Source of the DNA: a virus | Direction: 5' to 3' (one strand) | DNA length: 39,042 bases | Virus record (IMG/VR): IMGVR_UViG_3300005537_000018 | Location: 1-39,042 of that record | Shown: one piece after another, positions 25,427 to 32,529 of the stretch | Position numbering within the stretch: the stretch's first letter is position 1 | Layout of the letters: the number at the start of each line of letters is the position of its first letter | The notes under the pieces: model-generated | The model's input: the letters and a program-made list of their open reading frames with translations, nothing else | Database searches by the model: none | Told to the model about the DNA's origin: nothing | Translations under genes and position numbers: made by a program

Positions 25427-25616
25427 CGGCGGGTCTCCAGGTGGTTGTGTCAGTCTTCGGGCGCGCATCGCCCCGGAGCCGGCCGGCCATGCGCCGCAGC
25501 CGTCTCGCCGCCTCGTCCTTCAGGACGTGGAAGCGCTCCGGGTCGCCGTGCAGGAGCGCCAGGCGGTTGACCAGGTCGCAGATCGCGTCGGCCTCGGCCG
25601 CCTCGTCCTGGATCAC
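25350..25616 (-). CDS. Hypothetical helical protein overlapping the recombinase end
   Basis: The 88-residue product begins with an acidic helical half ('IQDEAAEADAICDLVNRLAL', 'PERFHVLKDEAARRLRRMAG') that looks folded. It ends in a basic unstructured half which runs over the next gene. The GTG at 25614-25616 overlaps the recombinase stop as GTGA, the same coupling used throughout this operon. I do not recognise a family. The long overlap with the gene at 25124 is the main doubt. Confidence 0.5.
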   Translation of the reverse strand: MIQDEAAEADAICDLVNRLALLHGDPERFHVLKDEAARRLRRMAGRLRGDARPKTDTTTWRPADAPGFRDHRAGREPPVPAGRSAFRR

Positions 25617-26590
25617 AGGCCGACCTTCCCTGCCGCGTTGCGCTTGAACCGGTTGCCGGCCTGGATGTAGCCGGCGGTCGTATCGAACTTCGAATGGCGC
25701 GCATGCGCCTGCAGCTCTTCGGGCGCCGCGCCCTTGTCGTTGGCGCTGGTGATCAGCCCGCTTCGCAGCGAGTGGCCGGCGAAGGCCGCCGGATCCAGGC
25801 CGATGCGTTCGCAGGCCGCCTTGACGACGTCGGCGATCGCCCGATCGGAGATCGCCGTCGCGCCCACATGGCCGTGCCGGTCGATCCCGCGGAAGATCGG
25901 GCCTGCCGTAATTCCGGCGGCCGAGATCCACGCCTGCAGCGCGGCGACCGCGCAAATCCGTTTGCCGAACGGGATCGCGACGACGGCGCCGCGGCCCTCC
26001 TGGTCGCCCTTCGAGCGCTCCAAGTGGATTTCGAGGCCCTGGCCTACGAATTCCGCCCGGATCCGCCCGGCTTCGGCGCCGGGCATCGTCAGGTTCGCGA
26101 GCTCGGACCGGCGCAGCGCGCCGGCGAAGCCCACCAGCAGGATCGCGCGATCGCGCTTTCCGCTCAGCGTGTCCGGCAGCTTCGCGAGCGCGCGCCGCAG
26201 GTCTTCCACCAGGAGCGCCCGCTTCTTCTTGGGCGGGCGCCCATGGGTGCGTTTGATGCCGGCCCACACCCGATCGAGATCGGGGTGGGCCGGCGGCGGC
26301 AATCCAGCGGCCTGGTGGAAGGCCGCGATCGCCGAGAGGTGCAGCGCCAGCGTGGCGACGGCCGTCGATTGGCGCGCGCGGGCTGTGAGGTACAGAGCGA
26401 CCGTGGCCGCCTCCGCCGGGAGTGGCGCGTGGCCAACGCTGGCGCACCAGCTGCAGAAGCTCCGCCAGGAGCTCCCGTAAACGCGCCTCGTCGCCGGCGA
26501 CCTGTCGGCCGCTGCGTATTCGCGGAGCGCTTCGTGCAGCTGGGGTTCAGTTACGCGGCCAGGGACCGCGACGATCGCGTTGCCAGCCAC
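25613..26590 (-). CDS. Second tyrosine recombinase (Cre/Xer-like)
   Basis: The 325-residue product has an N-terminal core-binding domain (about 15-105) with 'SPATRRVYGSSWRSFCSWC' and a C-terminal catalytic domain. Catalytic residues visible are R160 in 'GALRRSEL', a Lys in 'ERSKGDQEG' at about 194, H273 and R276 in 'HSLRSG', H299 in 'ARHSKF' and Y308 in 'TAGYIQAG'. The set is complete, so the enzyme should be active. It lacks the N-terminal arm-binding domain of lambda-type integrases, fitting a Cre or Xer-like resolvase more than an integrase. The start is GTG at 26588-26590 with GAGG seven bases upstream. A 34-bp lox-like imperfect palindrome lies 51 bp upstream. Confidence 0.85.
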   Translation of the reverse strand: MAGNAIVAVPGRVTEPQLHEALREYAAADRSPATRRVYGSSWRSFCSWCASVGHAPLPAEAATVALYLTARARQSTAVATLALHLSAIAAFHQAAGLPPPAHPDLDRVWAGIKRTHGRPPKKKRALLVEDLRRALAKLPDTLSGKRDRAILLVGFAGALRRSELANLTMPGAEAGRIRAEFVGQGLEIHLERSKGDQEGRGAVVAIPFGKRICAVAALQAWISAAGITAGPIFRGIDRHGHVGATAISDRAIADVVKAACERIGLDPAAFAGHSLRSGLITSANDKGAAPEELQAHARHSKFDTTAGYIQAGNRFKRNAAGKVGL

Positions 26591-26640: not shown

Positions 26641-26674
26641 CTGACTTCCGAAAAGTCCCCTTGTCGGAAGTTAG
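26641..26674. promoter_or_regulatory. 34-bp lox-like imperfect palindrome, candidate recombinase target
   Basis: The left arm CTGACTTCCGAAA (26641-26653) and right arm TGTCGGAAGTTAG (26662-26674) are reverse complements at 11 of 13 positions around an 8-bp asymmetric spacer AGTCCCCT. This 13-8-13 layout and total length equal that of loxP. It also contains the last codon and stop of the gene at 26671. A site next to a Cre/Xer-like gene suggests the recombinase's own target for resolving genome multimers. An alternative is an operator for the recombinase promoter. Confidence 0.55.
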
Positions 26675-26886
26675 CCCAGCCGCGCGACCAGGGTCCGAAC
26701 CGCCTCGACCAGCGGGTTCACGTTGCACATCTCGAGGTGCTCGAACGGCACTATCATCCGGCTGCTCAGGCCGCCGGCGCGGCCGCCGATCACCCGGAAG
26801 CCGTTGGCGGCCACCTCGATGGTGACCGGGACGGCCGCCTTGGCCGCGACACGCGCGGCGTCGCGCAGCTGGTCGGCGTAGATCAC
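26671..26886 (-). CDS. Small hypothetical protein upstream of the recombinase
   Basis: The 71-residue product has a mixed alpha/beta pattern ('IYADQLRDAARVAAKAAVPV', 'IEVAANGFRVIGGR', 'VNPLVEAVRTLVARLG'). I do not recognise a family. It begins with GTG at 26884-26886, directly after the upstream gene's TAG. Its stop codon falls inside the lox-like palindrome. Confidence 0.6.
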   Translation of the reverse strand: MIYADQLRDAARVAAKAAVPVTIEVAANGFRVIGGRAGGLSSRMIVPFEHLEMCNVNPLVEAVRTLVARLG

Positions 26887-31297: not shown

Positions 31298-31542
31298 GAT
31301 TGACCGGCGGCGCCGGCGAACGCCCACATCAGCGGGTTGTACGTGTACACCCTAGGTGAGGTGCAGCTTTGTTCACGGTCACATTATGTGTACGAGTCCC
31401 CTTGACGCCCAAGTGCACACCGTGTGAACCTTGGCTGTCCACCTGGGCCGGCCGCGCTCTCAGTCTGTGAGGGCCTGAATCCCCCCCGACAGCCCCCAGG
31501 CCCTTGGTCGCCTCGGGTGGACACCCAACAAGGGAGTCCCAC
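31298..31542 (+). promoter_or_regulatory. Promoter and leader region of the rightward early operon
   Basis: This 245-bp non-coding region precedes the GapR-like gene. It has TTGACG at 31402-31407, a match to the alphaproteobacterial -35, though the -10 is poor. TGTAC/TGCAC motifs occur at 31338, 31344 (within the palindrome GTGTACAC, 31343-31350), 31389 and 31414. Three GANTC sites (31394-31398, 31477-31481 and 31534-31538) lie within 145 bp, the first just before TTGACG. These suggest control by the phage regulators and by CcrM/GcrA. Confidence 0.55.
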
Positions 31543-31812
31543 GTGGCCGACGACGCATCCGCCCACCCCGACGTGCTCAACCAGGCCGCTCAAGGCCAGC
31601 TGAAGAGCATCATCGAGCGCATCGAGCGCCTCGAGACCGAGAAGTCCGAGATCGCCGAGCAGATCAAGGAAGTCTTCGCCGAGGCGAAGGGCAACGGCTT
31701 CGACGCCAAGGTGCTGCGCAAGGTCGTGGCGATCCGCAAGAAGGACCGCGCCAAGCGCCTCGAGGAGGACGCGATCCTCGACCTCTACCTCTCGGCGATC
31801 GGGGAGATCTGA
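31543..31812 (+). CDS. gapR-like: GapR-like DUF2312 nucleoid protein
   Basis: The 89-residue product is a close match to the GapR family (DUF2312). It has a coiled-coil helix '[20 protein letters not shown]' at about 19-38, then the conserved core '[20 protein letters not shown]' at 43-62, and a basic-acidic end '[20 protein letters not shown]'. In Caulobacter GapR is a tetramer that encircles overtwisted DNA and helps replication and topology control. Length matches the host protein, so the domain is complete. The GTG at 31543 follows AGGGAG with six-base spacing and leads the operon; the longer frame upstream is rejected. It may replace or compete with host GapR on phage DNA. Confidence 0.9.
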
Positions 31813-31814
31813 GG

Positions 31815-32003
31815 GTGACATATTCTGTCACCCACGCCGGCCAACCCGTCGCCCCCGGCGACGAGATCCGCGACGCCGACGGCCGCGCCTGGCGGTTCCT
31901 CTACCTGACCCGCGATGGGCGCCTCTTCGTCACACCGCAGGGGGGCCAGACGTGCGAGCGCCACCCCGACGGCTTTCCCGCACTCCGCCTCGAGGAGGCC
32001 TGA
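31815..32003 (+). CDS. Small hypothetical protein between gapR-like and gcrA-like genes
   Basis: The 62-residue product is beta-rich ('GDEIRDADGRAWRFLYLTRD', 'GRLFVTPQGGQTCERH') and resembles a small SH3-like or barrel fold, but I name no family. It starts with GTG at 31815, two bases past the previous stop, and ends just before the gcrA-like gene. It may assist either regulator, but nothing shows this. Confidence 0.6.
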   Translation: MTYSVTHAGQPVAPGDEIRDADGRAWRFLYLTRDGRLFVTPQGGQTCERHPDGFPALRLEEA

Positions 32004-32004
32004 C

Positions 32005-32529
32005 ATGGCGAAGCGCGACGAGGAAGCCTACGCCCGCGTCAAGGAGCTCTGGCTGCAGGGCGGTCTGACCGCCTCCGAAATCGGCCAGCGGATGGGAAAA
32101 TCCCGCTCGGCCGTGCTCGGCATCGTTCACCGGATGGGCCTCAACCGCGATCCGGCCTCGGCTCAGAAGATCCCCAAGGTGCGGACCCCGCGGGCGCCCA
32201 AGGCCCCGCCGAAGCCCCGCGCCGACCATCCCCTCGCCATCGCCGGCGGCGACGCGCGCCACGCGATGAACCCGCTCGGCGCGCACGGCTTCCACAAGCC
32301 GCCCAAGCCGATCAAGGCCGATGCGCTGACGCCGACCGCCAAGCCCTGGGTCGAGCGCGGGCCGCGCCAGTGCAAGTGGCCCTTCGTGGTCCTGGACGAG
32401 ACCTTCAGCTGCTGCGCGCCGGTCAGCGGCGAGAGCCCCTACTGCGCCGACCACACCGCGATCGCCTTCACCGGGATCCCGTCCCGCAAGCAGCCCGGCA
32501 AGGGCGCCAAGATGGACGGGCGCTGGTGA
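32005..32529 (+). CDS. gcrA-like: GcrA-family cell-cycle regulator homologue
   Basis: The 174-residue product has the two conserved parts of GcrA. The N terminus holds a helix-turn-helix, 'VKELWLQGGLTASEIGQRMG' then 'KSRSAVLGIVHRMGLNR' (about 12-48). The C terminus holds the sigma70-binding and cysteine part 'RQCKWPF' at 121-127 and 'SPYCADH' at 144-150, with Cys136, Cys137, Cys147 and His150 able to bind metal. The linker is Pro/Lys-rich. Host GcrA activates promoters carrying methylated GANTC sites with RNA polymerase. The ATG at 32005 has a strong AGGAGG (31993-31998) six bases upstream. No CcrM methylase is visible in the window, so it would use host methylation. Confidence 0.9.
   Translation: MAKRDEEAYARVKELWLQGGLTASEIGQRMGKSRSAVLGIVHRMGLNRDPASAQKIPKVRTPRAPKAPPKPRADHPLAIAGGDARHAMNPLGAHGFHKPPKPIKADALTPTAKPWVERGPRQCKWPFVVLDETFSCCAPVSGESPYCADHTAIAFTGIPSRKQPGKGAKMDGRW

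Follow-up and report, generated by a model that had tools for sequence, protein, structure and literature searches.

The window analysed here, a linear contig of 39,042 nucleotides from an environmental phage, carries on its minus strand the gene for a Cre-like tyrosine recombinase of 325 amino acids (25613-26590), which begins with a GTG start at 26590 and has a GAGGA Shine-Dalgarno sequence. Upstream of this gene lies a 34-bp lox-like site (26641-26674, no strand assigned) with the layout CTGACTTCCGAAA-AGTCCCCT-TGTCGGAAGTTAG from 5' to 3', in which the recombinase-proximal arm CTGACTTCCGAAA (26641-26653, plus strand) and the outer arm (26662-26674, reading CTAACTTCCGACA on the minus strand) flank an 8-bp spacer that is AGTCCCCT on the plus strand and AGGGGACT in the orientation of the recombinase gene. 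The sequence-only reading had described a 34-bp palindrome with an asymmetric 8-bp spacer and arms matching at 11 of 13 positions, 51 bp upstream of the recombinase; we recovered the 13-8-13 arrangement, its imperfect inverted repeats and its upstream position as described, with the distance to the GTG start corrected to 50 bp. A small gene of 71 amino acids (26671-26886), on the same minus strand as the recombinase and without a family match, has its stop codon inside the outer arm (26671-26674). Homologues of this gene lie upstream of the recombinase in two relatives, L018 and L019, and in several relatives the common outer-arm ends CTAA, CTAG and CTGA provide stop codons at the border of the site.

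The site and the recombinase are internal, with conserved phage neighbours on both sides. The small terminase gene (PF03592; 21580-22308, minus strand) is located 4.3 kb from the site, on its recombinase side. As had been claimed, the phage possesses its own separate integrase, a conventional Phage_int_M and Phage_integrase protein encoded at the far end of the contig (37703-38899, plus strand); several relatives encode conventional integrases too, often at the ends of their contigs. The window further contains GapR-like (31504-31812) and GcrA-like (31915-32529) genes, which resemble alphaproteobacterial cell-cycle regulators, and from these phage genes together with the Caulobacteraceae contig L098 we infer a caulobacteral host.

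The recombinase combines the Pfam Phage_integrase domain with an N-terminal SAM-like domain. Its nearest genuine sequence relative in the PDB is Cre (E about 4e-9; XerD, 0.43), the best phmmer row, the repeat protein Ika8, having been rejected as a chance match. An AlphaFold2 model (pLDDT 90.7) gave Cre as the best fold match, with a Z score of 25.4 over 292 residues compared with about 18 for XerA, XerH and IntI, consistent with the anticipated two-domain fold without an arm-binding domain. The complete active site ascribed to the enzyme was likewise borne out, as R160, E163, K194, H273, R276, H299 and Y308 match the Cre catalytic residues, with His taking the place of the Trp of Cre at the sixth catalytic position, and the nucleophile is kept in 142 of 143 aligned relatives. 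Comparison shows a Cre-like enzyme with an intact active site. Against the XerC and XerD equivalog cut-offs (335 and 330 bits) the protein fails, scoring 31.9 and 27 bits. Relatives are abundant, with 3221 plasmid records (the best at about 43% identity) and 379 viral contigs, the latter through an alignment query, a single-protein query of the viral contigs having returned no relative.

The geometry of the palindrome is in itself no evidence, because the window holds two 13-8-13 palindromes at 11 of 13 matches against 2.3 expected from dinucleotide shuffles. This count would suit a palindrome formed by chance, or else an RNA hairpin, for example a terminator, but no terminator-like match was found at the site, RNA folding gave a z of only -1.6, and the site stands as a conserved DNA island amid diverged flanks. 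Its conservation in relatives refutes the chance palindrome and is the reason for which we judge the site real; chance and hairpin together retain a negligible probability.

This conservation was assessed within a supported clade of phages whose recombinase proteins are about 48-74% identical. The sequence-only reading had staked its proposal on relatives retaining the palindrome, with conserved arms and a variable spacer. Within the clade this check did not refute the proposal: the site was present in all 12 phages with intact upstream DNA, its core diverged in one (L027), and the arms are kept while the spacers partly vary (AGGGGACT, AGGGTAGT, ATATCCAT and ACGCTCAT are among them). Between the window and L018 the two arms are identical at 11 of 13 and 13 of 13 positions, and nucleotide homology stops at the final base of the site. 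Across the clade the 40-bp flanks cannot be aligned and are at chance identity; in L018 and L019 the sites are identical (34/34), the alignment ends at their edges and the flanks agree at only 9 of 40 positions, which is the chance level. The distance from site to gene ranges from 51 to 787 bp in the clade, and the interval contains a few unrelated small open reading frames (ORFs) or none. PWM scoring of the window singles out this one site (45.5, next best 8.9), which answers the earlier question of further copies there; a PWM used for the relatives was seeded in part with clade sites and is somewhat circular, L021, L022, L024, L026, L028 and L098 being outside the seed set.

A stricter test across the whole recombinase family took 145 non-redundant loci and looked for the fixed arms CCGANA...TNTCGG, at spacings from 2 to 16, no farther than 800 bp from the gene. 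Enrichment was confined to spacing 8 (19 loci) and spacing 9 (25 loci), with at most 2 loci at every other spacing, and in 613 kb of DNA farther from the gene the same arms occurred once at spacing 8 and twice at spacing 9. The family consensus is approximately CTRRNKTCCGATA-A-N6/7-T-TATCGGA and its mirror, and about 70% of family loci are without a site by the strict motif. Mapped onto the recombinase tree, a quick tree with some long branches, the distribution of spacings 8 and 9 requires 4 changes compared with 14.7 when labels are shuffled, and none of 500 shuffles was as low; the spacing follows the recombinase tree, which links the site with the enzyme and not with the host or a promoter. 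Palindromes counted upstream of the gene without reference to a motif also exceeded shuffles at spacing 8, but because spacings 7 and 9 were raised as well we do not treat those counts as spacing-specific evidence, and the fixed-arm test replaced them.

An exact search of viral contigs with the core returned 50 places against 14 for the reversed control. Most of the 50 lie in records without PF00589, and other recombinases may use these copies as their sites. Viral contigs L002-L005 contain a window-like motif and lack any relative of the enzyme, and the intergenic region, used as a query against plasmid DNA, matched nothing above noise. A separate palindrome, aatagtTCCGATAA-N6-TTATCGGAaatgca, is common to viral contigs L198, L201, L202, L204, L206, L232 and L234, where PF00589 was not detected, and perhaps represents host Xer-type sites. 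In three relatives (L049 at 4923, L080 at 834 and L081 at 4873) an extra half-site, TATCGGAC, follows shortly after the palindrome and resembles the accessory motifs of TnpI-type resolution sites.

Two further relatives, L178 (2566-10363) and L180 (2106-8612), from records G027 and G037, carry 7-8 copies of TCCGATAA-N6-TTCCCGGAA, most of them at the start codons of unrelated small ORFs that share the N-terminus M-T-x-S-D-K-x-x-S-R-K; the GAT and CGG codons hardly vary among the copies, which indicates constraint at the DNA level. Such arrays, mostly at gene starts, would accord with the palindrome serving as a repressor operator, possibly of a recombinase-fold regulator such as SPbeta MrpR, a phage protein that has the tyrosine-recombinase fold and binds repeated cognate DNA elements (SPBRE) in its phage (PMC10516654). 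MrpR, however, has lost crucial catalytic residues (PMC10516654), whereas the window enzyme has the full set and its family keeps them. The site is also single-copy in the window, the choice between spacings 8 and 9 follows the recombinase tree, and a distance to the gene of 51-787 bp with genes between would be odd for autoregulation, so that we regard an operator as quite improbable.

The small genes around the site raise the question of whether it is a gene-exchange junction, at which small cassettes are acquired or swapped beside the recombinase in a natural form of cassette exchange. Different small ORFs separate site and recombinase among clade members, and gene-sized differences abut the site edge in the pairs L080/L081 and L054/L070, which are otherwise 91-97% identical. 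In some relatives (L050, L065, L067, L072 and L043) two lox-like sites with unlike spacers flank the recombinase gene, an arrangement that resembles heterospecific cassette-exchange sites. Conversely, the extra gene in L070 is bounded by no second or relict site, and a cassette insertion there was rejected; alignment ends near sites number 59 against a crude expectation of 38.6, a modest excess; and because the site and the gene ends are constrained, ordinary insertions would look alike. We therefore consider a gene-exchange junction unlikely, and it is similarly doubtful that the heterospecific site pairs or the gene-start arrays load or swap small genes by a process distinct from integrons and pdif modules.

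Some simple tyrosine integrases use short att sites, and in some relatives a single PF00589 protein is present in the record, as would be expected if the recombinase were a second integrase and the palindrome its attP for a host or another element with a similar site. Against this stand the conventional integrases of the window and of several relatives and the internal position of recombinase and site among phage genes. Moreover, a search allowing up to 1 mismatch turned up no attB-like core in any of 149 Caulobacteraceae genomes, and of five host genomes, two contained the palindrome, in both cases solely next to the recombinase. The dif-like host sites that the sequence-only reading had looked to were, given the inferred host, absent in the same search (0/149). 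Given the conventional integrase of the phage, the internal position and single copy of the site, and the lack of the core in every genome of that search, the site is probably neither an attachment site nor a host dif, and we assign the attP alternative a low probability.

The 34-bp site almost certainly belongs to the adjacent recombinase as its own target, an assignment made from sequence comparison and strongly supported by the conserved arms, the partly varying spacer, the enrichment of particular spacings and the co-variation of spacing with the tree; the Cre-like fold, the full set of catalytic residues and the separate integrase support it further. We consider it likely that, in this temperate and probably caulobacteral phage, enzyme and site form a self-contained Cre/lox-type module that would monomerise or circularise the phage DNA. 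This role is favoured with moderate confidence because of the separate integrase, the single internal site, the lack of a Caulobacteraceae copy and the parallel with P1. Two recombinase molecules would bind the 13-bp arms of a site, and a dimeric or concatemeric genome, or one with terminal redundancy spanning the site, would supply two copies of it. The paired sites would then come together in a synapse, and strand exchange in the 8-bp spacer would yield monomeric circular phage DNA, leaving integration to the separate integrase. Multimer resolution in particular is plausible; no ParA (PF13614) was found in the window or in 26 related records, which may be incomplete, and there is thus no indication of an episomal stage in which monomerising would be needed.

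A widespread Cre-like recombinase family, spanning Alphaproteobacteria, Acidobacteriota, Bacillota, Chloroflexota and Actinomycetota and not described in the literature that we searched, is thereby paired with predicted target sites. Because the distribution of the two spacer lengths, 8 and 9, follows the protein tree, target specificity and the control of spacer length become directly testable, and the family offers candidate orthogonal recombinases for genome engineering. It also raises the question of why temperate phages that have an integrase keep a second, Cre-like system.

The locus is a genuine Cre/lox-like module and a further case of an already known type of system. XerCD/dif and cer-type sites share with it short paired arms around a short centre and serve in dimer resolution, but the window has one recombinase, near-symmetric arms and scores far below the XerC/XerD cut-offs, and its site is absent from the related bacterial genomes searched. 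In the TnpS/TnpT-rst systems of Tn4651-type transposons, an inverted-repeat core upstream of the recombinase gene serves resolution (PMC7157771). The pairing of a tyrosine recombinase with an upstream inverted-repeat site is common to both, and the pADP-1 relative L011 has a divergent partner gene, whereas neither a divergent TnpT-like partner nor a transposase lies beside the window gene.

The closest parallel is Cre/loxP of P1, in which Cre circularises P1 DNA, its record naming it a cyclization recombinase. The two systems share a fold over 292 residues, the catalytic set and a 34-bp 13-8-13 site upstream of the gene, and the outer arm is identical to the loxP arm ATAACTTCGTATA at 9 of 13 positions. 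In P1, lox precedes cre by 418 bp and cra occupies the interval, much as a small gene intervenes in several relatives of the window, and lox is 4.0 kb from pac, inside pacA, a distance close to that between the window site and the small terminase gene. The differences are a protein identity of about 22-25%, another spacer, a His where Cre has Trp as its sixth catalytic residue, a terminase on the recombinase side of the site, the presence of an integrase and no ParA found among the 27 records. Cre acting at loxP resolves multimers and keeps P1 monomeric (PMC2409434). For Nigri/nox and Panto/pox, intergenic lox-like sites were predicted and shown to be active (PMC4957104). Those sites are active, while the window site is predicted and belongs to an environmental phage with its own integrase; the criteria of prediction are nonetheless identical, namely a 34-bp intergenic site with at most 2 arm mismatches and an adjoining recombinase gene.
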